Of a stretch of DNA of 64,000 nt, positions 517-35,983 are shown piece after piece. Positions within the stretch are counted from its first letter, which is position 1, and the number at the start of each line of letters is the position of its first letter. The notes below the pieces were generated by a model that worked only from the letters and a program-made list of their open reading frames with translations, searched no databases and was not told where the DNA came from. The translations under genes were made by a program, and so were the position numbers. Source of the stretch: Kingella negevensis (GTDB lineage: Bacteria > Pseudomonadota > Gammaproteobacteria > Burkholderiales > Neisseriaceae); the NCBI RefSeq assembly GCF_030177895.1, contig NZ_CP123448.1:1488001-1552000 (forward strand), in the 5' to 3' direction.

Positions 517-3500
517 ATGAATCATACTTATAAGGTCGTGTATAACGAATCGACCAATACTTACGTTGCAGTGGCGGAGTTTGAGCCGAGCAAAGGTAAG
601 TCTAAATCTTTGAAGAAGGCTATTGCTGCGGCAGTTGCTTTGGCAGCGGCTCAGCTTGTGCCTTTAACGGCGCAGGCAGCTGTCTCCATTGGCTCAACAT
701 CTGGAAACAGTATTACGCCCGCAAAAGTAACAGATAATGGTAATGCTGTTGCTGTGGGTCATGAGGCTTCAGCAATAGGAACAGACGTTGCAGTTGGCCC
801 TTATGCTACTGCAACGGGTACAGATAACATCGCTATTGGTAACCATAGTAAAGCTTCTGCTACAAGAGAGGGTTACGGCATTATTGCGATTGGTAACCAA
901 AGCAACGGTTCTGCATCGGAAACAATTGCTATCGGTCAGTGGGCTTGCGCAACTGCTTCTCAAGCGGTTGCCTTAGGTGCAAAAACTCAAGCAACGGGTG
1001 AACAATCTGTAGCGCTTGGTGGTAATGCTATTTCTTCTGGTGCGGCTGCGTTGGCATTTGGTGGCGATGACTTGGATAAAGCTTCTAAAGTAGGCCGTTC
1101 AACCGATGGCAAACCGAACACAACGGGTGAAGTTATAAATGAAGGCGACGTAAATAAAGAATTTAAGAAAATTTCTGGTCAAAATTTGGTTAAGAAAGTC
1201 GATAACCTAACTTCTACTAATAATACTGAAGCGCAATATATGCCAACCAATGCTTATGGTGCGGCTTCTATTGCGATAGGTATTCAAGCACGCTCAGGTG
1301 ACTTGGCTACTGCATTTGGTACGCAATCATTCGCAACTGGTTTGGCTTCTACTGCTTTGGGTGTAGCGTCTAATGCAAGTGGTAATGGTTCGATTGCGAT
1401 AGGCCCAGGTACTGATGCGACTGGTGAACAGTCTATCGGTATGGGTGCGAACGCCTCATCAAGCAATAATCACTCTATTGCAATTGGTACAAATGCAATA
1501 ACATCTGGTAATCAATCTATTTCTGTTGGTTATGCCAATAAAGTAAGTGGTAACAACTCTGGTGCATTCGGTGACCTTAGCACAATTACTGGCTCTGGTG
1601 CTTATGCAGTTGGTAACAATGTTACTGTTTCAGGCTGCAATACAATGGTGTTGGGTAACAACATCACTACGGCAACCAGTGGTTCTGTTGTTTTGGGTAA
1701 TAGCAGCTCAGGCTCTATGTCTGTGGAAACATGCTCTTCTGCTACTGTAAACCGTATTACTTACAGCGGCTTTGCTGGTAAAGTAACAGATAAAGGTAAA
1801 TATGTAAGCGTTGGCGCAAATGCTACTGATGCTCGTAAGATTGTGAATGTTGCTGCTGGTAATATCGCTTCGGATTCAACTGAAGCAATTAACGGCTCTC
1901 AGTTGTATTTAACTCAAGCGGTTATTGCTAATGTGGCAAATAGCACAGCTAAAGCATTGAGCCCTAATAGCACTTATGATGCAAATGGTAGTATCAAGCC
2001 AAACATCACAGTAAATAATGGCAGTGGTCCTGTTTCAGGTATCAGCAATGTTGAAACAGCTATTGCAACTGCAGGCTGGCAATTGCAAGCCAATGGCAGC
2101 CGAGTTGATAACATCAATGCTGGCGATGTGGTTAATTTCGCTTCTAGTGATGGCACTGTAAAAGTAACAGGTAAAGATAAAGATGGTAAAAAAACAATTG
2201 ATTTGTCTGTAAACACAACAACATTATCAACAAATGCAAACGGCACAATTAATGGTTCTACAGCACCAAATAACTTGGTGAACGCGAGCACAGTTGCAAA
2301 TGCAATTAACAACGCAAGCTGGAATGTGACCTCAGGTAAAGAAGATAAAGGTAGCCAAGTCGGTTCGAGCAAAAGTGAGCAAGTGAAACCAGGCGAAGAA
2401 GTGAAATTCTTGGCAGGTGACAACTTGGTGATTAAGCAATCAGGTAAAAACTTCACATACTCATTGAACAACAATGTTTCATTGACTAATTCAGGCAGCT
2501 TCACGATTAGCAATGACAAAGCAGGTGGTAGCTCAGTTGTATTGAACAAAGACGGTTTGAATAATGGTAATAACACCATTACCAACGTAGCGAACGGTAC
2601 AAATGGCACAGATGCAGTGAACGTAAGACAATTGAAAGCTACGAAAACTGTTGTAAAAAGTGGTAAAAATACAGAGGTAACCAGCTCAACTAACTCAGAT
2701 GGCGCAACTGTTTACACTGTAAATGCAACAGTAGATCCAGTAACGGTTACTAACACCACATTGAATACCGAAGCAAATGGTACAACCACCTATGCAGTCG
2801 GTAAGGGTGGTAATTTAGTTAATGCCAGCACAGTTGCAAATGCAATTAACAACGCAAGCTGGAATGTGACCTCAGGTGTAGCAGATAAAGGTAGCCAAGA
2901 CGGTGCGAGCAGCAGTGAGCAAGTGAAACCAGGCGAAGAAGTGAAATTCTTGGCAGGTAACAACTTGGTGATTAAACAATCGAGTCAAAACTTCACATAC
3001 TCATTGAGCAACAATGTTTCATTGACTAATTCAGGCAGCTTCACAGTGGGTAACACTACAGTGAAAGATGGCAGCATCACGATTAGCAACGGCACAGCAG
3101 GTAGCCCAGTTGTATTGAACAAACACGGTTTGAATAATGGTAATAACACCATTACCAACGTAGCGAACGGTACAAATGGCACAGATGCAGTGAACGTAAA
3201 CCAATTGAATGCTACGAAGACATTTGTAAACCAAACAGATGGCATAACAGTAAGCAGCTCAACTAATACAAATGGTTCAACTGTTTACACAGTAGGTGCG
3301 AACACCACATCGTTGACACACAATGCCAACGGTACAGTGGCAGTTCCATCTAAAAACGGCACTAACTTGGTGAACGCAAGCACAGTTGCAAATGCAATTA
3401 ACAACGCAAGCTGGAATGTAACCTCAGGTGTAGAAGGTAAAGGTAGCCAAGTCGGTTCGAGCAAAAGTGAGCAAGTGAAACCAGGCGAAGAAGTGAAATT

Positions 3501-6500
3501 CTTGGCAGGCGACAACTTGGTGATTAAACAATCAGGTCAAAACTTCACATACTCATTGAACAACAACATATCGTTGAGTAATACAGGCAGCTTCACAGTG
3601 GGTAACACTACAGTGAAAGATGGCAACATCACGATTAGCAACGGCACAGCAGGTAGCCCAGTTGTATTGAACAAACACGGTTTGAATAATGGTAATAACA
3701 CCATTACCAACGTAGCGAACGGTACAAATGGCACAGATGCAGTGAACGTAAACCAATTGAATGCTACGAAGACATTTGTTAAAGGTGGTGATGGCGTAAA
3801 AGTTGTTAGCTCAACTAATGCAAATGGTTCAACTGTTTACACAGTAGGTGCGAACACCACATCGTTGACACACAATACCAACGGTACAGTAAATGTTCCA
3901 TCTAACAACGGCAATAACTTGGTGAACGCCAGCACAGTTGCAAATGCAATTAACAACGCAAGCTGGAATGTAACCTCAGGTGTAACAGGTACAGGTAGCC
4001 AAGACGGTGCGAGCAGCAGTGAGCAAGTGAAACCAGGCGAAGAAGTGAAATTCTTGGCAGGTAACAACTTGGTGATTAAACAATCAGGTCAAAACTTCAC
4101 ATACTCATTGAACAACAACATATCGTTGAGTGATACAGGCAGCTTCACGATTAGCAATGGCAACGCAGGTAAGTCAGTTGTATTGAACAAACACGGTTTG
4201 AATAACGGTGGCAACACCATTACCAACGTAGCGAACGGTACAAATGGCACAGATGCAGTGAACGTAAGCCAATTGAATGCTACGAAGACATTTGTAAACC
4301 AAACAGATGGCATAAGAGTAAACAGCTCAACTAATGCAAATGGTGCAACTGTTTACACAGTAGGTGCGAACACCACATCGTTGACACACAATACCAACGG
4401 TACAGTGGCAGTTCCATCTAACAACGGCACTAACTTGGTGAACGCAAGCACAGTTGCAAATGCAATTAACAACGCAAGCTGGAATGTGACCTCAGGTGTA
4501 ACAGGTACAGGTAGCCAAGATGGTTCGAGCAGCAGTGAGCAAGTGAAACCAGGCGAAGAAGTGAAATTCTTGGCAGGTAACAACTTGGTGATTAAGCAAT
4601 CAGGTCAAAACTTCACATACTCATTGAACAACAACATATCGTTGAGTAATACAGGCAGCTTCACAGTGGGTAACACTACAGTGAAAGATGGCAACATCAC
4701 TATTGCAAATAGTACTGCTGACGGCAGCAACGTAACATTGAACCAAAGAGGCTTGAATAACGGTAACAACACCATTACTAACGTTGCGAAAGGTAATATT
4801 TCTGAAAATAGTACTGACGCAATCAATGGTAGCCAGTTGTATAGCTTGGGTAACAGCACAGCGACTATCTTTGGCGGTAATACAAGGTACAACGCAACTT
4901 TAGGTCGTGTTGAAGGCTTCAGGTTGAATACAACTTACGCTAACGGTAATACTTATGGCGCACCAGCAACTAACATTGGTGGTGCGATTACTAACCTGAA
5001 TAAATATGTAAATGAAGGTTGGAAAGTAGGTAATACGACAGGCGTGGTCGGAACCATTACCCCAACAGAGCAAGTGAACTTTGTGAACAGCTCAACATTG
5101 GCTGCGAATGTGATACCTAATGCACAAGGTGGTGTGAATGTAAGCTTTGACGTATTGTCAGGTAACGTAACAGTTAATCCGAACGGTACAACAAGCGCTA
5201 CAAAACCTGGTATTGCAACGATTACGAATGTAACGGAAGCGATTAACAAATCAGGCTGGAATATCACTACCAACAATAATGCACAGACATCTGAGTTGAT
5301 TAACCCAGGTAAAACAGTAAGCATTAACCAAGGTAGCAATATTGAAGTAAAGCAAAACGGTAGTAATATTACTATTGCGACAGCCCAAAACGTTTCATTC
5401 AATAACGTTCATGCCAACAACAGCATTAGCATTGGTAACTCAACAACTGGTAACGTAACCTTGACTACGAAGACTAACAGCAACGGCACGACTTCGTTGC
5501 ACTTAGGCAATAACACTGGTGGTCCAGTAGGTATTTCTAACGTGAAAAATGGTGATGTATCAGAGAACAGTACTGACGCAGTGAATGGTAGTCAGTTGTA
5601 CCAAATCTACAAAGTAGTGGGTGGTAACAACCAAAACGTATCGACTACGAATACAACCATCGTTAATCCGAATGGCACAACGTCGAATGTAACCATTGCA
5701 ACGTCCGCGAACTACACGATGAAAACATACAACGTGAAAGACCAGACAGAGTTCGTAACGAATGACGTGATTCAAGCAATTGGTCGTATGAATGAAGAAG
5801 GTATTAAATTCTTCCACACCAACGACGAAAATGTGAACAAATCAATCATTCAAGCAAATAACTCAGTGGACTCAAGTGCAGCAGGTGCATACTCAACTGC
5901 ATTAGGTGCACGAGCTAAAGCCAACGGCAACCAAAGCTTGGCAATGGGTTCTGCATTGGGCATCAACGTAACAACGTTGGCTAATGGCACGAAAGTGTAC
6001 TCATCTGTACAAGACACTGTTGCAAGCGGCGAAAGCAGTATTGCAATGGGTACAGGTATCAACGTAACAGCAGCAGCAACACAAGCCATCGGTATTGGTT
6101 ATGCGAACAACGTATCGGGCGCACAATCAATCGCAGTAGGTCAAAATGCAACTGTTACGGGTACTCAATCGATTGCTATTGGTTATGGTAACCGTGTAAC
6201 AGGTAGTCATTCTGGTGCGTTTGGTGACCCAACTGTTGTAACAGGCAATAGTTCTTACAGCATTGGTAACCACAACAAACTGGCAACAGATAGTACTTAT
6301 GCGTTGGGTAGCAACATTACCAATACAACAACTAACTCTGTATTCTTGGGTGATAATTCACGCAGCTTTGCGCAAGCAAACTCAAACTTGAACACCTCTA
6401 CAGGTGCACACGTTGCCTTGAATACAAACGCTAGCGCGTACACTTACAACAATTTGAATAGCACTCAAGTTAAGGGTGTTGATAATGTAGTAGGTGTTGT

Positions 6501-7236
6501 GAGCGTAGGTAGCGATAATGCAACTCGCCAAATTCAAGGCGTGGCAGCAGGTGTCGTTTCTGAAAACTCTACAGACGCGATTAATGGTAGTCAGTTGTAC
6601 AACTCGTTGAAAGAGTTTAATGCTGCTGTAGTTAATAGCACGGTGAAGATTTCTACTAATGGCAATAATCCTTCACCTGCAATTAACGGCGTTATCAACT
6701 TCAACAACGGTAATGGTACAGTCGTTGAGAAAAACGGTAGCAACATCACCATTAATACACCAACCACTTACGTGAACAAAGACGGTACTAAGTCACAAAA
6801 CGCGACTAACCAAGTCAACTTCATCGGTGCGCCAGTGATTGATAAGAACGGCAATGTTGTTAAAGACCAAAACGGTAACGTTATTTACAACGACGTAAGA
6901 TTGCAAAAAGTTGCCCCAGGTATTCAGGACAATGACGCAGTGAACGTTGGTCAGTTGAAACAAGTTGCAAACAACTTGAATAACCGCATTAACCAAGTTG
7001 CAGATGATTCTGATGCAGGTGTAGCAAGCGCAATGGCTACTGCAGGTCTCCCACAAGCGTTCTTACCTGGTAAGAGCATGGCGGCTGTTGCAGGCAGCAC
7101 ATACCGCGGCAAACAAGGTTACGCAGTCGGCTTCTCAGCGATTAGCGACGGCGGTAACTGGATTGTTAAAGGTACTGCTTCTGGCAATAGCAAAGGCTAC
7201 TTCGGTGCTACCGTTGGTGCTGGTTATCAGTGGTAA
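517..7236 (+). CDS. Trimeric autotransporter adhesin (YadA/Hia/Knh-like)
   Basis: A 2239-residue surface adhesin of type Vc. The N-terminus has the extended signal peptide form (MNHTYKVVYN, then VAVAEF, a basic stretch and an Ala-rich core ending near residue 55). Residues about 80-420 are YadA-type head repeats with the AxAIGxxAxAxG pattern. Necks of the type AINGSQLY occur near residue 456 and later. A long stalk contains five near-identical blocks (residues about 585-1430). A second head segment lies around 1785-2010. The last 75 residues form the YadA membrane anchor, ending in the aromatic YQW. The protein is very rich in N-X-S/T sequons, as in Kingella Knh. ATG 517 follows GAGGAAA. A lipoprotein and an L,D-transpeptidase-like gene follow downstream. 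The family assignment is firm; ligand and symbol are unknown. Confidence 0.95.
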   Translation: MNHTYKVVYNESTNTYVAVAEFEPSKGKSKSLKKAIAAAVALAAAQLVPLTAQAAVSIGSTSGNSITPAKVTDNGNAVAVGHEASAIGTDVAVGPYATATGTDNIAIGNHSKASATREGYGIIAIGNQSNGSASETIAIGQWACATASQAVALGAKTQATGEQSVALGGNAISSGAAALAFGGDDLDKASKVGRSTDGKPNTTGEVINEGDVNKEFKKISGQNLVKKVDNLTSTNNTEAQYMPTNAYGAASIAIGIQARSGDLATAFGTQSFATGLASTALGVASNASGNGSIAIGPGTDATGEQSIGMGANASSSNNHSIAIGTNAITSGNQSISVGYANKVSGNNSGAFGDLSTITGSGAYAVGNNVTVSGCNTMVLGNNITTATSGSVVLGNSSSGSMSVETCSSATVNRITYSGFAGKVTDKGKYVSVGANATDARKIVNVAAGNIASDSTEAINGSQLYLTQAVIANVANSTAKALSPNSTYDANGSIKPNITVNNGSGPVSGISNVETAIATAGWQLQANGSRVDNINAGDVVNFASSDGTVKVTGKDKDGKKTIDLSVNTTTLSTNANGTINGSTAPNNLVNASTVANAINNASWNVTSGKEDKGSQVGSSKSEQVKPGEEVKFLAGDNLVIKQSGKNFTYSLNNNVSLTNSGSFTISNDKAGGSSVVLNKDGLNNGNNTITNVANGTNGTDAVNVRQLKATKTVVKSGKNTEVTSSTNSDGATVYTVNATVDPVTVTNTTLNTEANGTTTYAVGKGGNLVNASTVANAINNASWNVTSGVADKGSQDGASSSEQVKPGEEVKFLAGNNLVIKQSSQNFTYSLSNNVSLTNSGSFTVGNTTVKDGSITISNGTAGSPVVLNKHGLNNGNNTITNVANGTNGTDAVNVNQLNATKTFVNQTDGITVSSSTNTNGSTVYTVGANTTSLTHNANGTVAVPSKNGTNLVNASTVANAINNASWNVTSGVEGKGSQVGSSKSEQVKPGEEVKFLAGDNLVIKQSGQNFTYSLNNNISLSNTGSFTVGNTTVKDGNITISNGTAGSPVVLNKHGLNNGNNTITNVANGTNGTDAVNVNQLNATKTFVKGGDGVKVVSSTNANGSTVYTVGANTTSLTHNTNGTVNVPSNNGNNLVNASTVANAINNASWNVTSGVTGTGSQDGASSSEQVKPGEEVKFLAGNNLVIKQSGQNFTYSLNNNISLSDTGSFTISNGNAGKSVVLNKHGLNNGGNTITNVANGTNGTDAVNVSQLNATKTFVNQTDGIRVNSSTNANGATVYTVGANTTSLTHNTNGTVAVPSNNGTNLVNASTVANAINNASWNVTSGVTGTGSQDGSSSSEQVKPGEEVKFLAGNNLVIKQSGQNFTYSLNNNISLSNTGSFTVGNTTVKDGNITIANSTADGSNVTLNQRGLNNGNNTITNVAKGNISENSTDAINGSQLYSLGNSTATIFGGNTRYNATLGRVEGFRLNTTYANGNTYGAPATNIGGAITNLNKYVNEGWKVGNTTGVVGTITPTEQVNFVNSSTLAANVIPNAQGGVNVSFDVLSGNVTVNPNGTTSATKPGIATITNVTEAINKSGWNITTNNNAQTSELINPGKTVSINQGSNIEVKQNGSNITIATAQNVSFNNVHANNSISIGNSTTGNVTLTTKTNSNGTTSLHLGNNTGGPVGISNVKNGDVSENSTDAVNGSQLYQIYKVVGGNNQNVSTTNTTIVNPNGTTSNVTIATSANYTMKTYNVKDQTEFVTNDVIQAIGRMNEEGIKFFHTNDENVNKSIIQANNSVDSSAAGAYSTALGARAKANGNQSLAMGSALGINVTTLANGTKVYSSVQDTVASGESSIAMGTGINVTAAATQAIGIGYANNVSGAQSIAVGQNATVTGTQSIAIGYGNRVTGSHSGAFGDPTVVTGNSSYSIGNHNKLATDSTYALGSNITNTTTNSVFLGDNSRSFAQANSNLNTSTGAHVALNTNASAYTYNNLNSTQVKGVDNVVGVVSVGSDNATRQIQGVAAGVVSENSTDAINGSQLYNSLKEFNAAVVNSTVKISTNGNNPSPAINGVINFNNGNGTVVEKNGSNITINTPTTYVNKDGTKSQNATNQVNFIGAPVIDKNGNVVKDQNGNVIYNDVRLQKVAPGIQDNDAVNVGQLKQVANNLNNRINQVADDSDAGVASAMATAGLPQAFLPGKSMAAVAGSTYRGKQGYAVGFSAISDGGNWIVKGTASGNSKGYFGATVGAGYQW
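2272..4800 (+). repeat. Five tandem stalk repeats within the adhesin gene
   Basis: Blocks starting near 2272, 2812, 3364, 3916 and 4432 (spacing 540, 552, 552 and 516 bp, all multiples of three) encode almost the same 172-184 residue unit. Each contains NLVNASTVANAINNASWNVT, then EQVKPGEEVKFLAG and, in most, a TDAVNVxQL neck. The high nucleotide identity should allow in-frame copy-number change by recombination, and it is a likely place for assembly collapse. Confidence 0.9.
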
Positions 7237-7246
7237 TTAACTAACC

Positions 7247-7285
7247 CTTTTCAGGCTGCTCTCTTTGAGTAGGCAGCCTGAAAAG
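7247..7285 (+). terminator. DUS hairpin between adhesin and lipoprotein genes
   Basis: Two inverted DUS copies (CTTTTCAGGCTGC at 7247-7259 and its complement at 7273-7285) form a 13-bp stem. The run of T after it is weak, so it probably attenuates rather than fully separates the adhesin from the next gene. It is also an uptake signal. Confidence 0.55.
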
Positions 7286-7307
7286 ATTATTTAAGGAAAT
7301 AAAAACA

Positions 7308-7796
7308 ATGTTGAAAAAATTAGCATTGATGTTGGCTACAGCAACTGTGTTGAGCGCATGTGGTACATCAGGCACGGTAGTGAGCTCGGACGGCACGTCT
7401 GACAAACTGCATTGGCCTGACCCACAAAGCACGTCATTCAATAAAGACCGTGGTACGTTCCCAGATTTGGGCAGCCTGAAACAAATCCGTTCAGGTATGT
7501 CTAAAGACCAGTTGTACTACTTGATTGGTCGCCCACAATTTACAGAGGGCTTCCGTGTTCGCGAATGGGACTACCTGTTCCATTTCAACACACCAGGTCA
7601 AGGCACAAACAACGTAACAACTTGCCAATACAAAGTATTGTTTGACAATCAACGATTTGCACGTAGCTTCCACTGGCGTCCAGTAGACCCAGTTGGCGCG
7701 AAATGTCCACCTGAGTTGGAAAAAGAAGTTCCACCTCCACAACCTCAAGTGATTATTCGTGAAATCGTTAAAACGCCTGTGAGAATCCGTCAATAA
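7308..7796 (+). CDS. BamE/SmpA-like outer-membrane lipoprotein
   Basis: A 162-residue lipoprotein with signal MLKKLALMLATATVLSAC; the lipobox is LSAC, with Cys18 as the lipidated residue. The middle (residues about 60-125: LKQIRSGMSKDQLYYLIGRP, then the REWDYLF region) has the helix-strand pattern of the SmpA/BamE fold. The C-terminal tail is Pro-rich (KEVPPPQPQ). ATG 7308 follows AAGGAAA. It lies 71 bp after the adhesin and 1 bp before the next gene, so it is likely co-expressed with both. Small lipoproteins next to trimeric autotransporters (SadB, TpgA types) aid assembly or bind the cell wall. A helper role here is an inference from position. Confidence 0.75.
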   Translation: MLKKLALMLATATVLSACGTSGTVVSSDGTSDKLHWPDPQSTSFNKDRGTFPDLGSLKQIRSGMSKDQLYYLIGRPQFTEGFRVREWDYLFHFNTPGQGTNNVTTCQYKVLFDNQRFARSFHWRPVDPVGAKCPPELEKEVPPPQPQVIIREIVKTPVRIRQ

Positions 7797-7797
7797 T

Positions 7798-8253
7798 ATG
7801 AAGCGATTGAAATATGCTTTATTGTTGAGCTTGGGCTTGGCTACGATGAGTGGTCAAGCACTTGCAGATGACAGTCAATTGCCTGCTTCTGTGGTGCAAT
7901 ACATGCAAAGCAGACGCGTGGTGGTGGATACCAGCAAAGCTGAATTGTGCTTTCCTGATACCAAAGACTGCCATAAAGTTTTGATTGGTAAAACAACTCC
8001 GAAGGGAACTTATCGCATGACACTCCATACCACTGATAAAAAAGGGTATGGTGGTGATGTGATTGGTTTCAAAGAGGAAAACGGTTTCTTGTTTGCACTG
8101 CACCGCGTTTGGACACAAATTCCAGCAGAACGCCGTTTGCAACGTATTGCTTCGGATAATGTTGCAGACCGTGTGATGACGAATGGCTGTATCAATGTGG
8201 AAAATGCTGTGTATGACCGTTTGAAAAAATACTTTTATGTTGATATTGTTTAA
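7798..8253 (+). CDS. Secreted L,D-transpeptidase-like protein
   Basis: A 151-residue protein with a cleavable signal (MKRLKYALLLSLGLATMSGQALA). The rest resembles a small YkuD catalytic domain: a VVVDTSKAEL strand start, GKTTPKGTYRMT, ALHRVW with the candidate His, and TNGCINVENAVY with the candidate catalytic Cys. The usual motif is S/T-HGC; here it is T-NGC, as in a divergent subset. YkuD enzymes crosslink peptidoglycan or attach proteins to it in the periplasm. The start codon follows the previous stop by 1 bp (TAATATG), which implies translational coupling. Possible roles are wall remodelling for adhesin export or anchoring of the neighbouring lipoprotein; both are untested. Confidence 0.75.
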   Translation: MKRLKYALLLSLGLATMSGQALADDSQLPASVVQYMQSRRVVVDTSKAELCFPDTKDCHKVLIGKTTPKGTYRMTLHTTDKKGYGGDVIGFKEENGFLFALHRVWTQIPAERRLQRIASDNVADRVMTNGCINVENAVYDRLKKYFYVDIV

Positions 8254-8273: not shown

Positions 8274-8308
8274 AAAAGCCTTTTGCTGATTTGCAAAAGG
8301 CTTTTTTA
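8274..8308 (+). terminator. Rho-independent terminator after the adhesin cluster
   Basis: AAAAGCCTTTTGC pairs with GCAAAAGGCTTTT across a 6-nt loop and is followed by a T run. It closes the adhesin-lipoprotein-transpeptidase cluster. The following 200 bp hold several DUS copies and a short GTAGGGTGG...CCACC palindrome at 8409-8428, but no gene. Confidence 0.85.
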
Positions 8309-11502: not shown

Positions 11503-12320
11503 GAACCTGTATTCACAAAAATGATAAAATATCTTTATGACTAGAAAATCCTACCCAACAGACTTAACAGATGCCCAATGGCAAGCGATTGAGCCACATT
11601 TTAACCAGCTACGCCACTACAAATGGGATAAACGTCAATTAGTGAATGCCGTTTTGTACATCACCAAAACAGGTTGCCAATGGCGTATGCTGCCCAATGA
11701 TTTTCCACCTTATTCAACCGTATGGAGTTTCTATCGCAGAGCCAATCAATCAGGCTTATGGGATAGAATTCTTTTGGCATTGGTTCAAAAAAACGTTTAA
11801 TCCATCAAAAACAAGCAATGCCAACTTATGCCATTCTTGATTCACAAAGTGTCAAAACAGCTTCTAGCGCACATGATAAAGGTTTTGATGGAGGTAAAAA
11901 AATCAAAGGTCGTAAGCGACATATAGCTGTTGATACGTTGGGTAATCTATTGTCTGTTGTGGTTCATGCAGCCAATATTCATGACACAAAAGCAGGTATT
12001 TTTGTAGCAAAAAAAGCGTTTGAGACCTATCCGAGTTTAAAAGGTTTCTGTGCGGACGCAGGTTATCGGAATACATTTGAGCGTGAAGTATCAGAGCAAT
12101 TGGGTTTAACTGTTGAGATTTCAAAGAGAATTCAAGATATTTCTTGGCATATTCTGCCCAAACGTTGGATTGTAGAACGAACGTTTGCATGGTTAGGTTG
12201 GTCTCGACGTTTAGCAAAAGATTTTGAGCAGACGAATTTATCTGCTGAAAATTTTGTTAAACTAGGGTATATTTCACAAATATTAAAATTTATCAAATAG
12301 TTGTTTGTGAATACGGGTTC
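11503..12320 (+). mobile_element. Complete IS5-family element (818 bp)
   Basis: The ends are GAACCTGTATTCACAAA and, inverted, TTTGTGAATACGGGTTC. TTA stands on both sides (11500-11502 and 12321-12323). The TNA duplication and the two-frame transposase fit the IS427-like group of the IS5 family. The copy is nearly identical to those at 58512-59329 and in the split element, so expansion is recent. Confidence 0.9.
11537..12300 (+). CDS. IS5-family transposase, orfA/orfB joined by -1 frameshift
   Basis: orfA (11537-11800, 87 residues: MTRKSYPTDLTDAQWQAIEP, then QWRMLPNDFPPYSTVWSFY) is the N-terminal DNA-binding part. orfB is in the -1 frame; its first ATG is 11818 and it ends at 12300. orfB holds the DDE core: Asp in YAILDSQSVKT, Asp in GFCADAGYR and Glu in WIVERTFAWL. 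The frames overlap at the slippery heptamer A AAA AAC (11788-11794), so a -1 shift would give ...LVQKKRLIHQKQAMPTY... and a full-length DDE transposase. The intact copy at 58512-59329 has the same arrangement, which supports programmed frameshifting over decay. Confidence 0.88.
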
Positions 12321-12443
12321 TTAATTTCAGCGTTTTCAGGCTGCCAACAAATGCAACAAACGCAGCCTGAAAACATTTCTCAACCTCCGAAAAACAAGGA
12401 AACCAAAATGAAAAAAGTTTTTCTCAGCGTGCTAACCGCCCTA

Positions 12444-13294
12444 GGGGCTAATGACATTTTAGCTATAATTTCAACCAAATCAAAGCACAAGCTAATGACA
12501 CGGTACTTTCATAATTACGTTTTAATTTATCGTACCGTGTTGCCAGCGCACGAAAATGCTTTAATCGTACAAAAGCGTTTTCTACCAAGTGCCTGATTTT
12601 ATATAAATACCAATCTGTGTCCACATTAAGATGCTCTCTACTTTTCTTATATGGAATATTGGCTTTACTTTGTTTAGAATGAATTAACCGACGAAAAGTA
12701 TCACTGTCAAAACCCCTATCAGCACACACGGTTTCATTATCACTTAAGTCCAATTGTGCCAATAAATCAGGCGCAACAACAATCTCATTTACATTACCAG
12801 CTGTAATCATAAATTCAATTGGATTACCACAAGCATCAACCGCTAAATGAATTTTAGACGTATGACCTCCGATACTCTTACCGACAGCTTGATGCACAAT
12901 GGATTTTTTACCCATGCCGTGTTGATGAACACGGATATGACTACCGTCCATAAAGACCCATTCCATATCGGGTGTATCTGCCAAATGTTTAAATAATTTG
13001 GTAAAAATACCGCGTTTAGACCAGCGATTGAAACTTTGGTAAAGGCTGTTTGCTTTACCAAAATAACTAGGTATATCAGCCCATTGGCAGCCTGTACGTA
13101 AGCGAAACAGGATACCTTCTACTGTTTTGCGTAAATTTTTCTTGCGATAAATGCCAAGCTGTTTCAAAATAGGTAACAGTCTTGACCATGTTTCATTTGT
13201 AAGCGTGTTTCGGGACATGGCAAAGGTTTAGGATGGTTGTGTGGAAACAATATCTTATATCCTTTGCCTCTTTTTTTGAATTGTCAATAGCCCC
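12444..13294 (-). mobile_element. Second IS5-family element (851 bp) inside sco
   Basis: The ends are GGGGCTAATGACA and, inverted, TGTCAATAGCCCC (one mismatch). The dinucleotide TA is duplicated on both sides (12442-12443 and 13295-13296). It carries one transposase gene on the minus strand. Ends, target and transposase differ from the 818-bp IS around it. Confidence 0.9.
12463..13218 (-). CDS. IS5-family transposase, single frame
   Basis: A 251-residue DDE transposase occupying almost the whole IS. The N-terminal domain reads MSRNTLTNETWSRLLPIL and then RTGCQWADIPSYFGK. Catalytic Asp residues are in WVFMDGSHIRVHQHG and ETVCADRGFDSD; the Glu is in ENAFVRLKHFRALATRYDKL. There are no internal stops or frameshift, so it is probably active. 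Confidence 0.92.
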   Translation of the reverse strand: MSRNTLTNETWSRLLPILKQLGIYRKKNLRKTVEGILFRLRTGCQWADIPSYFGKANSLYQSFNRWSKRGIFTKLFKHLADTPDMEWVFMDGSHIRVHQHGMGKKSIVHQAVGKSIGGHTSKIHLAVDACGNPIEFMITAGNVNEIVVAPDLLAQLDLSDNETVCADRGFDSDTFRRLIHSKQSKANIPYKKSREHLNVDTDWYLYKIRHLVENAFVRLKHFRALATRYDKLKRNYESTVSLACALIWLKL

Positions 13295-15185: not shown

Positions 15186-16899
<1,714 letters not shown>

Positions 16900-16923
16900 G
16901 CTGAAATAAAGATGCGACACATA

Positions 16924-17000
<77 letters not shown>

Positions 17001-17057
17001 AGAGAATAAACTGAGTTAAATTAGAAGAAAAAGAAATCAATTTAATAGGTAAATACT

Positions 17058-17133
17058 GGGGGCATAGCTCAGTTGGTAGAGCACCTGCTTTGCAAGCAGG
17101 GGGTCATCGGTTCGATCCCGTTTGCCTCCACCA
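17058..17133 (+). tRNA. tRNA-Ala (UGC)
   Basis: A 76-nt cloverleaf with acceptor GGGGGCA/TGCCTCC, anticodon loop TTTGCAA (anticodon TGC), GGTTCGATCCC T arm and encoded CCA. Second spacer tRNA. The 394 bp from here to 23S hold the boxA at 17258, a degenerate DUS near 17340 and the 5' arm of the 23S stem. Confidence 0.97.
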
Positions 17134-17510
17134 AGATTAAATAAAATGAAAAATTAGATTGCAAATTAAAGCAAGTTTAGATAAACTGGCGAGCTTACTT
17201 TAATTTGCGATATATTTTTATAAGCGAAAGCTGAGAAGAAGTATAATTAAACGCATCGATCTTTAACAAATTGGAAAGCCGAAATCAACAAACAAAGACA
17301 ATGTTGTCGATTTGGTTTGGGATGCTGATGCAACAGTATTTCAGGCAGCCTGTAAAGGCAACAAATCGAATGACAAAATTTGGGTGATGATTGTATCAAC
17401 TAACCTTGAATTCAAAAGGCAAGGTTAGTACACAACAAGCAGTAAGCTTTATCAAAGTAGAGAATCTAAGTTAGTCATGTAGTCAACGCACTGATTAACA
17501 AAGTCAGAAG

Positions 17511-20424
<2,914 letters not shown>

Positions 20425-20527
20425 TTTAAAATAAAACCTTTTAAAGTATCAAATATAAAGCTTACTGATAAATACAGTTCATCACCTAATAGTTGATTAA
20501 ATAACGGCTTACCAATTTACAGTTTTT

Positions 20528-20640
20528 GTTTGGCGACCATAGCGGTTTGGTCCCACTCCTTCCCATTTCGAACAGGACAGTGAAACAAACCAGCGCCGAT
20601 GATAGTATAGTCCCTATGCGAAAGTAGGTCATCGCCAAAC
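20528..20640 (+). rRNA. rrf: 5S ribosomal RNA
   Basis: About 113 nt. The ends pair (TTTGGCGA with TCGCCAAA), and the internal segment CCCATTTCGAACAGG matches the conserved CCGAACTC loop region. It lies about 115 bp after 23S and ends the operon. Confidence 0.93.
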
Positions 20641-35873: not shown

Positions 35874-35904
35874 AAGATTGAATAGGGGAATAGATATTCA
35901 TTTA

Positions 35905-35983
35905 GTTTCCTACGTCAGTGCTAACTGTATCAGGTTCACGGGTATTTCTCAGCCGCCGACTGGCAGCACCCCGACTAAAAAAG
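35905..35983 (-). promoter_or_regulatory. TPP riboswitch (THI element)
   Basis: On the minus strand the sequence has the diagnostic blocks GGGGTGCTGCCAG, GGCTGAGAAATACCC, GTGAACCTGATACAG and GACGTAGGAA in the correct order. It precedes thiM and should lower expression of the salvage operon when thiamine pyrophosphate is plentiful. The 417-bp stretch 35750-36166 otherwise holds DUS copies and the promoter of the divergent gene. Confidence 0.95.

Follow-up and report, generated by a model that had tools for sequence, protein, structure and literature searches.

A TpgA-like lipoprotein with a short conserved tail (gene 2) and a divergent YkuD-fold protein (gene 3) are linked in Neisseriaceae: the tail form of gene 2 was found in 37 of the 83 genomes examined, and gene 3 was found in exactly those 37. 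This match suggests that genes 2 and 3 are a unit and an apparent substitute for the peptidoglycan-binding domain of TpgA. On balance, we favor reading the pair as a TpgA-type adhesin anchor divided between two proteins, with the tail and gene 3 replacing the OmpA_C domain. The association is real and conserved, is wider than had been supposed in an earlier note on this DNA, and is a variant of the TpgA kind.

The window, i.e., the whole 64,000-nucleotide stretch of Kingella negevensis contig NZ_CP123448.1 that was analyzed, contains three genes on the plus strand, separated by 71 and 1 bp, respectively, and followed by a hairpin with a T run that resembles an intrinsic terminator (8274..8305, plus strand), just as the earlier note had described. 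Gene 1 (517..7236, 2239 aa) carries an ESPR signal, head and stalk repeats and a C-terminal YadA anchor. Its ESPR and anchor, both recognized previously, were confirmed by Pfam models over cut-off, with four of four models exceeding the threshold (YadA anchor, head/stalk repeats and ESPR signal), and the anchor matched the Hia structure 2gr7 at 1.6e-23. Judged by its sequence, gene 1 is a type Vc trimeric autotransporter adhesin, with a predicted surface trimer. Gene 2 (7308..7796, 162 aa) encodes a TpgA-N-like lipoprotein that lacks OmpA_C. It lies directly 3' of the adhesin gene, as is the case for TpgA, and ends in the conserved tail PQVIIREIVKTPVRIRQ (7743..7793), which was seen only in genomes that also hold gene 3. 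Gene 3 (7798..8253, 151 aa) encodes a secreted, divergent YkuD-fold protein with a conserved His102 (codon 8101..8103) and Cys131 (codon 8188..8190, within TNGCINV), proposed as catalytic base and nucleophile, respectively. A database entry with 99% identity to gene 3 bears the name Kingella negevensis.

Both profile and structure comparisons place gene 2 close to TpgA. The best PDB profile match was chain 9vnj_B (TpgA-N; 8.8e-14), which was also the best Foldseek match of the predicted model (7.1e-7, target-normalised TM 0.80). Against the NCBIfam TpgA model gene 2 scored 52.4 bits, which is below the equivalog threshold (cut-off 350), and the Pfam search returned no match to PF00691 (OmpA_C) at E up to 1; within the alignment of gene 2 relatives, OmpA_C was confined to the long forms. 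The tail alone was predicted with low confidence (pLDDT 53-66). Gene 2 had previously been proposed as a BamE-like aid to insertion or anchoring; its role as a candidate anchor lipoprotein is sustained in the form of a TpgA-like protein, whereas the nearest structure proved to be TpgA-N and not BamE. Identity with BamE itself, which shares the domain fold, is disfavored because TpgA-N is the closer structure and a separate BamE-family locus was present in seven of the seven related genomes checked. SadB is likewise an accessory lipoprotein of a trimeric autotransporter but is an inner-membrane, trimeric protein. No SadB-named model or chain appeared among the gene 2 matches (Pfam, NCBIfam, PDB profile and Foldseek, judged by the names used in these databases), and TpgA has been reported to be dissimilar to SadB (PMC8151025).

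The residues with which TpgA contacts its adhesin apparently match as well. In a reported simulation of AtaA-TpgA, the main salt bridges were K3576-D65 and D3601-K64 (PMC13082670). The TKDQ of TpgA (9vnj_B) aligns with TKDQ in the gene 2 family (SKDQ in gene 2 of the window), and K66 and D67 of gene 2 are near-invariant in the family alignment; with numbering derived from a constant offset, TpgA K64 and D65 appear to correspond to these two residues. For the adhesin, chain 9vnj_A comprises 108 residues, and if it begins at 3523, as the stalk numbering in the AtaA report would indicate (PMC13082670), K3576 would fall on the K of PGK and D3601 on the D of ADNG. Under this numbering, the two AtaA positions face identical residues in gene 1 (PGK and SDGG). 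PGK and SD.G are also present in Hia, so their conservation is a matter of consistency rather than proof. The meningococcal gene 2 is, we assume, NMB1898. Two publications treat NMB1898 (PMC6168680 and PMC3088726).

By their predicted domain make-up, the TpgA-like proteins of Neisseriaceae come in two architectures, distinguished here: a BamE domain followed either by OmpA_C (classic TpgA) or by a conserved tail with the consensus I-[IV]-R-E-[VI]-...-[IV]-R-[QRKE], typically IIRE[VI]...RIRQ. Gene 2 produced 87 matches in the 83 Neisseriaceae genomes, divided into 48 tail forms and 39 long forms according to the end point of the match; an OmpA-type ending was seen in long forms where endings were read, some of them incomplete, and one match ending in RIRE (L135) was counted as a tail form. 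Long forms only, without gene 3, were present in 26 of the 83 genomes, and neither form nor gene 3 in 20, while none of the 39 long forms in these genomes adjoined gene 3. Among 140 Pasteurellaceae genomes, gene 3 was found once, beside the sole tail form among the matches listed. This locus belongs to Nicoletella and represents a complete trio in the same gene order. Pasteurellaceae also have short forms without the tail (e.g., in G137 and G182), and those listed have no gene 3 in their genomes. The search of both families with genes 2 and 3, which the earlier note had called for, thereby revealed that gene 3 tracks the tail form of gene 2.

A search pattern built on the beginning of the tail matched once in each of 24 of the 83 genomes, every time inside gene 2 and with many synonymous differences, compared with one match for the reversed-pattern control. 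By this exact pattern, which recovers only 24 of the 37 tail genomes, no other protein with the tail motif was detected in the 83 genomes. The same genomes yielded no gene 2-gene 3 fusion and no gene 3 match with an open frame longer than 180 aa. When the search was extended to 399 genomes of the order, with up to 10 candidates scored in each, it gave 10 strong gene 3 matches, all known from the family search, and weak partial matches in 12 genomes. Scanning 84,980 species with exact gene 3 patterns, an approach that missed genomes found by the family search, produced 20 loci: 15 in Neisseria/Neisseriaceae (14 genomes), one in Nicoletella, one in Herminiimonas (42%) and three weak loci in Stenotrophomonas (2) and Bacteriovoracaceae (1). 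In a non-exhaustive literature search, no title or abstract opening joined a trimeric autotransporter, a BamE-like lipoprotein and a YkuD protein, and a prior description is possible. In N. gonorrhoeae DSM 9188 (L001, L039), where one gene 2 copy adjoins a leuS-like gene, the signal peptide and lipobox of that copy are in a different frame from the remainder of the gene, and the tail and gene 3 are intact.

The history of the two architectures was examined using a quick tree of the BamE domain (103 rows and no more than 116 columns; the gene 2 remnant L009 was left out), which leaves 47 of its 96 forks open. This tree requires seven changes between having and lacking the tail, at least four of them on well-supported branches. 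A single origin of the tail form was rejected, as the AU test excluded the one-clade tree (p 3e-6). Supported branches provided four independent contrasts, and all four agreed once the nine long forms from mixed genomes were set aside; with these retained, gene 3 followed the tail in 3.3 of 4 contrasts on average and never went in the opposite direction. With only four contrasts, a sign test cannot be significant (p 0.125 at best). On this tree, either the ends of gene 2 or its BamE parts have been swapped several times, and either way the tail and gene 3 remained together. One long-form gene 2 (L149, genome G014) has a BamE domain that grouped with the tail forms with moderate support, a placement that suggests domain exchange by recombination.

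The predicted model of gene 3 adopts a small, divergent YkuD fold, in agreement with its previous assignment as a YkuD-type protein with a TNGC motif, and both the His and the Cys are conserved; the structure prediction thus returned the fold whose absence would have counted against the three-part module of the earlier note. The sequence scores below the Pfam YkuD cut-off. The catalytic His and Cys are invariant in a 27-row alignment and present in 40 of 40 distinct cores, with the full motif in 38 of these; the two exceptions, L136 (THGC) and L017 (HRVY), keep both residues. His and Cys are 29 residues apart in 38 of the 40 cores and 30 apart in L017 (L136 was left out of the count). In the ordinary YkuD enzyme whose gene adjoins the second gene 3 copy of L016, the spacing is 16, which is 13 residues shorter, and the motif is SHGCIRM, while the distance in LdtMt2 is 18. 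Compared to YkuD, LdtMt1 and LdtMt2, gene 3 is further set apart by an extra Cys pair (residues 51 and 58 in the window protein), which is invariant in the 27 rows and was found in 40 of 40 cores by a loose pattern; this conservation suggests a disulphide. An ordinary YkuD match over the cut-off was obtained in 82 of the 83 Neisseriaceae genomes, and in no genome did the best match fall at the place of gene 3, so gene 3 is probably not the general L,D-transpeptidase of the cell. The second gene 3 copy mentioned above (L016/L140, Neisseriaceae MAG RGIG3394) lies 3' of the ordinary L,D-transpeptidase-like gene (SHGCIRM) and not of gene 2.

Genes 2 and 3 resemble Braun's lipoprotein with its L,D-transpeptidases and DpaA, where an outer-membrane lipoprotein is likewise paired with YkuD-fold enzymes. 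LdtA-C attach Braun's lipoprotein covalently to meso-diaminopimelate of peptidoglycan, and gene 3 could in the same manner be a true L,D-transpeptidase that joins the gene 2 tail to meso-diaminopimelate and thereby bolts the adhesin to the wall, a scenario to which we give little credence. The YkuD fold, the conservation of His and Cys, the strict partnership of gene 3 with the tail form, and tails that end in RIRQ (RIRK in one variant), somewhat like the C-terminal end of Lpp, are all compatible with it. Unlike Braun's lipoprotein, however, the gene 2 tail has no constant terminal lysine, and gene 3 appears tied to one lipoprotein family. Lysine is absent from 11 of 50 tails and the last residue varies (Q in 44, R in 4, K in 1 and E in 1), so there is no constant amine, and the His-Cys distance of 29 differs from the 16 of the ordinary neighbor enzyme. 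In addition, a review reports no proteins covalently attached to peptidoglycan in gonococci and meningococci, although rare ones may have been missed (PMC6365954). In view of the lysine-free tails and this report, the bond implied by the earlier suggestion that gene 3 links the lipoprotein to peptidoglycan is unsupported, and covalent attachment of the gene 2 tail is less likely. It is similarly improbable that gene 3, as a YkuD enzyme reserved for a single family of adhesin-anchor lipoproteins, attaches their tail to peptidoglycan through a reaction that needs no terminal lysine, which would make it a Gram-negative equivalent of the sortase-like anchoring of an adhesin to the wall.

Gene 3 might instead be a hydrolase (i.e., an L,D-carboxypeptidase or DpaA-like amidase) whose action is to trim stem peptides or to make a local opening in the wall, allowing the large adhesin or its lipoprotein to pass or settle, with the tail serving for recruitment only. 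The highest identities among the structural matches listed were to Csd6 (23%) and Bd1075 (22%), both of which are carboxypeptidases, and the TNGCIN of gene 3 lacks the Arg that follows in SHGCIRM of the ordinary enzyme. Differences in identity at the 22-23% level are weak evidence, however, LdtMt2 also has Asn at the position of this Arg, and if hydrolysis were the only activity the tail need not take the place of a wall-binding domain; we consider a hydrolase unlikely, if still a serious candidate. Under the two-protein anchor that we favor, gene 3 would bind peptidoglycan, as its predicted fold suggests.

The relation of the pair to adhesins was assessed by locating YadA anchors on the same strand within 700 bp; anchors were listed down to E 2.4e-13, so that some neighbors may have been missed. 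Among the anchors listed, 16 of the 48 tail forms lie between an adhesin and gene 3, 20 lie beside gene 3 only and 12 beside an adhesin only. Hence an adhesin anchor adjoins 28 of 48 tail forms and, likewise among the matches listed, 28 of 39 long forms. For adjacent gene 2-gene 3 pairs, 16 of 36 have a neighboring anchor among the matches listed and 20 do not, which rules out an obligate trio. The module is therefore the gene 2-gene 3 pair: from the three-part module proposed in the earlier note, the link of gene 3 to gene 2 stands, with the adhesin as a frequent but not obligate neighbor. Pairs without a nearby adhesin had been named as the observation that would speak against the module and were indeed found (20 of 36), yet all 37 genomes with gene 3 encode an anchor somewhere. 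This last figure is weak on its own because 75 of the 83 genomes have one anyway (62 of 63 with any form of gene 2; all among the matches listed).

Seven anchor-less pair loci with long flanks (L001, L002, L003, L005, L006, L010 and L011) contained no anchor, and in the first four the upstream neighbor, named by eye, is a leuS-like gene on the opposite strand. The four loci with the leuS-like neighbor, together with the 20 of 36 pairs without an adjacent anchor among the matches listed, would fit a general link between outer membrane and wall, with proximity to adhesins being incidental. We find this quite doubtful given the anchors within 700 bp of 28 of 48 tail forms (gene 3 adjoins 16 of these and not the other 12) and 28 of 39 long forms, the YadA anchors in 62 of the 63 genomes that carry gene 2 in any form, and TpgA-N as the nearest solved relative of gene 2. 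The 12 tail forms that adjoin an adhesin while gene 3 lies elsewhere in the genome suggest action in trans, and the pair probably serves non-adjacent adhesins too. In N. iguanae (L009/L028), for example, an intact gene 3 lies beside a degraded gene 2, and a different contig carries an intact tail form next to an adhesin anchor.

How adhesin fibers hundreds of nanometers long are retained in a fluid outer membrane under load has been posed as an open question (PMC13082670). TpgA is a helper described as contacting both the adhesin barrel and the wall; it is reported to interact with AtaA as well as peptidoglycan, and less AtaA reaches the surface when TpgA is missing (PMC8151025). Like gene 2, the TpgA of the AtaA-TpgA operon (Acinetobacter sp. 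Tol 5) has a BamE-like domain of the same fold encoded 3' of a trimeric autotransporter gene, but TpgA holds peptidoglycan by a fused OmpA_C, whereas gene 2 ends in a short conserved tail and is paired with a separate YkuD protein. In the two-protein anchor, the gene 2 lipoprotein would sit probably in the outer membrane, where its BamE-like domain would grip the periplasmic face of the adhesin barrel as TpgA-N grips AtaA, an analogy that we infer from the fold and from the conservation of contact residues. The tail would then dock on gene 3, a small periplasmic YkuD protein, and recruit it to the adhesin site, where gene 3 would bind and probably edit peptidoglycan stem peptides. Together, both proteins would couple the adhesin barrel to the wall, resist pull-out and help surface display, and within a cell one gene 3 may work with several lipoproteins of the tail form and several adhesins. 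Points that count against this reading are the 20 of 36 pairs without an adjacent anchor among the matches listed, the ordinary YkuD match in 82 of 83 genomes, the low-confidence prediction of the tail alone, the presence of PGK and SD.G in Hia, and the small number of independent contrasts. This arrangement suggests that the wall-gripping half of a TpgA-like helper is exchangeable between two unrelated solutions (i.e., a fused OmpA_C or a tail with a YkuD protein). It also offers a possible role for the unassigned YkuD-like protein of gene 3, which 37 of the 83 Neisseriaceae genomes encode, and makes the precise prediction that the tail peptide binds the gene 3 protein.

The gap between genes 1 and 2 contains a hairpin (7247..7285, plus strand) formed by inverted, uptake-sequence-like repeats of the GCAGCCTGAA type; AGGCAGCCTGAA occurs 20 times on one strand of the window and 14 times on the other. 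The hairpin has a z of -5.5 against shuffled sequences, a control that applies to the gap of the window itself, and 47 of 56 adhesin-gene 2 gaps at related loci fold at or below -15 kcal/mol, with the remaining 9 being weaker. It is possibly a conserved attenuator, or a partial terminator, and may lower expression of gene 2 relative to gene 1. The strength of this hairpin makes it harder to argue that all three genes share one transcript; the tight unit is genes 2 and 3, separated by 1 bp. Elsewhere in the window, two transposase-like regions, named by eye from their translations, span 11537-13218 (11537-12300 in two frames and 12463-13218 on the minus strand), followed by a complete rRNA operon with tRNA-Ile and tRNA-Ala (15315-20640) and a TPP riboswitch on the minus strand (35890-35983, 65.1 bits).
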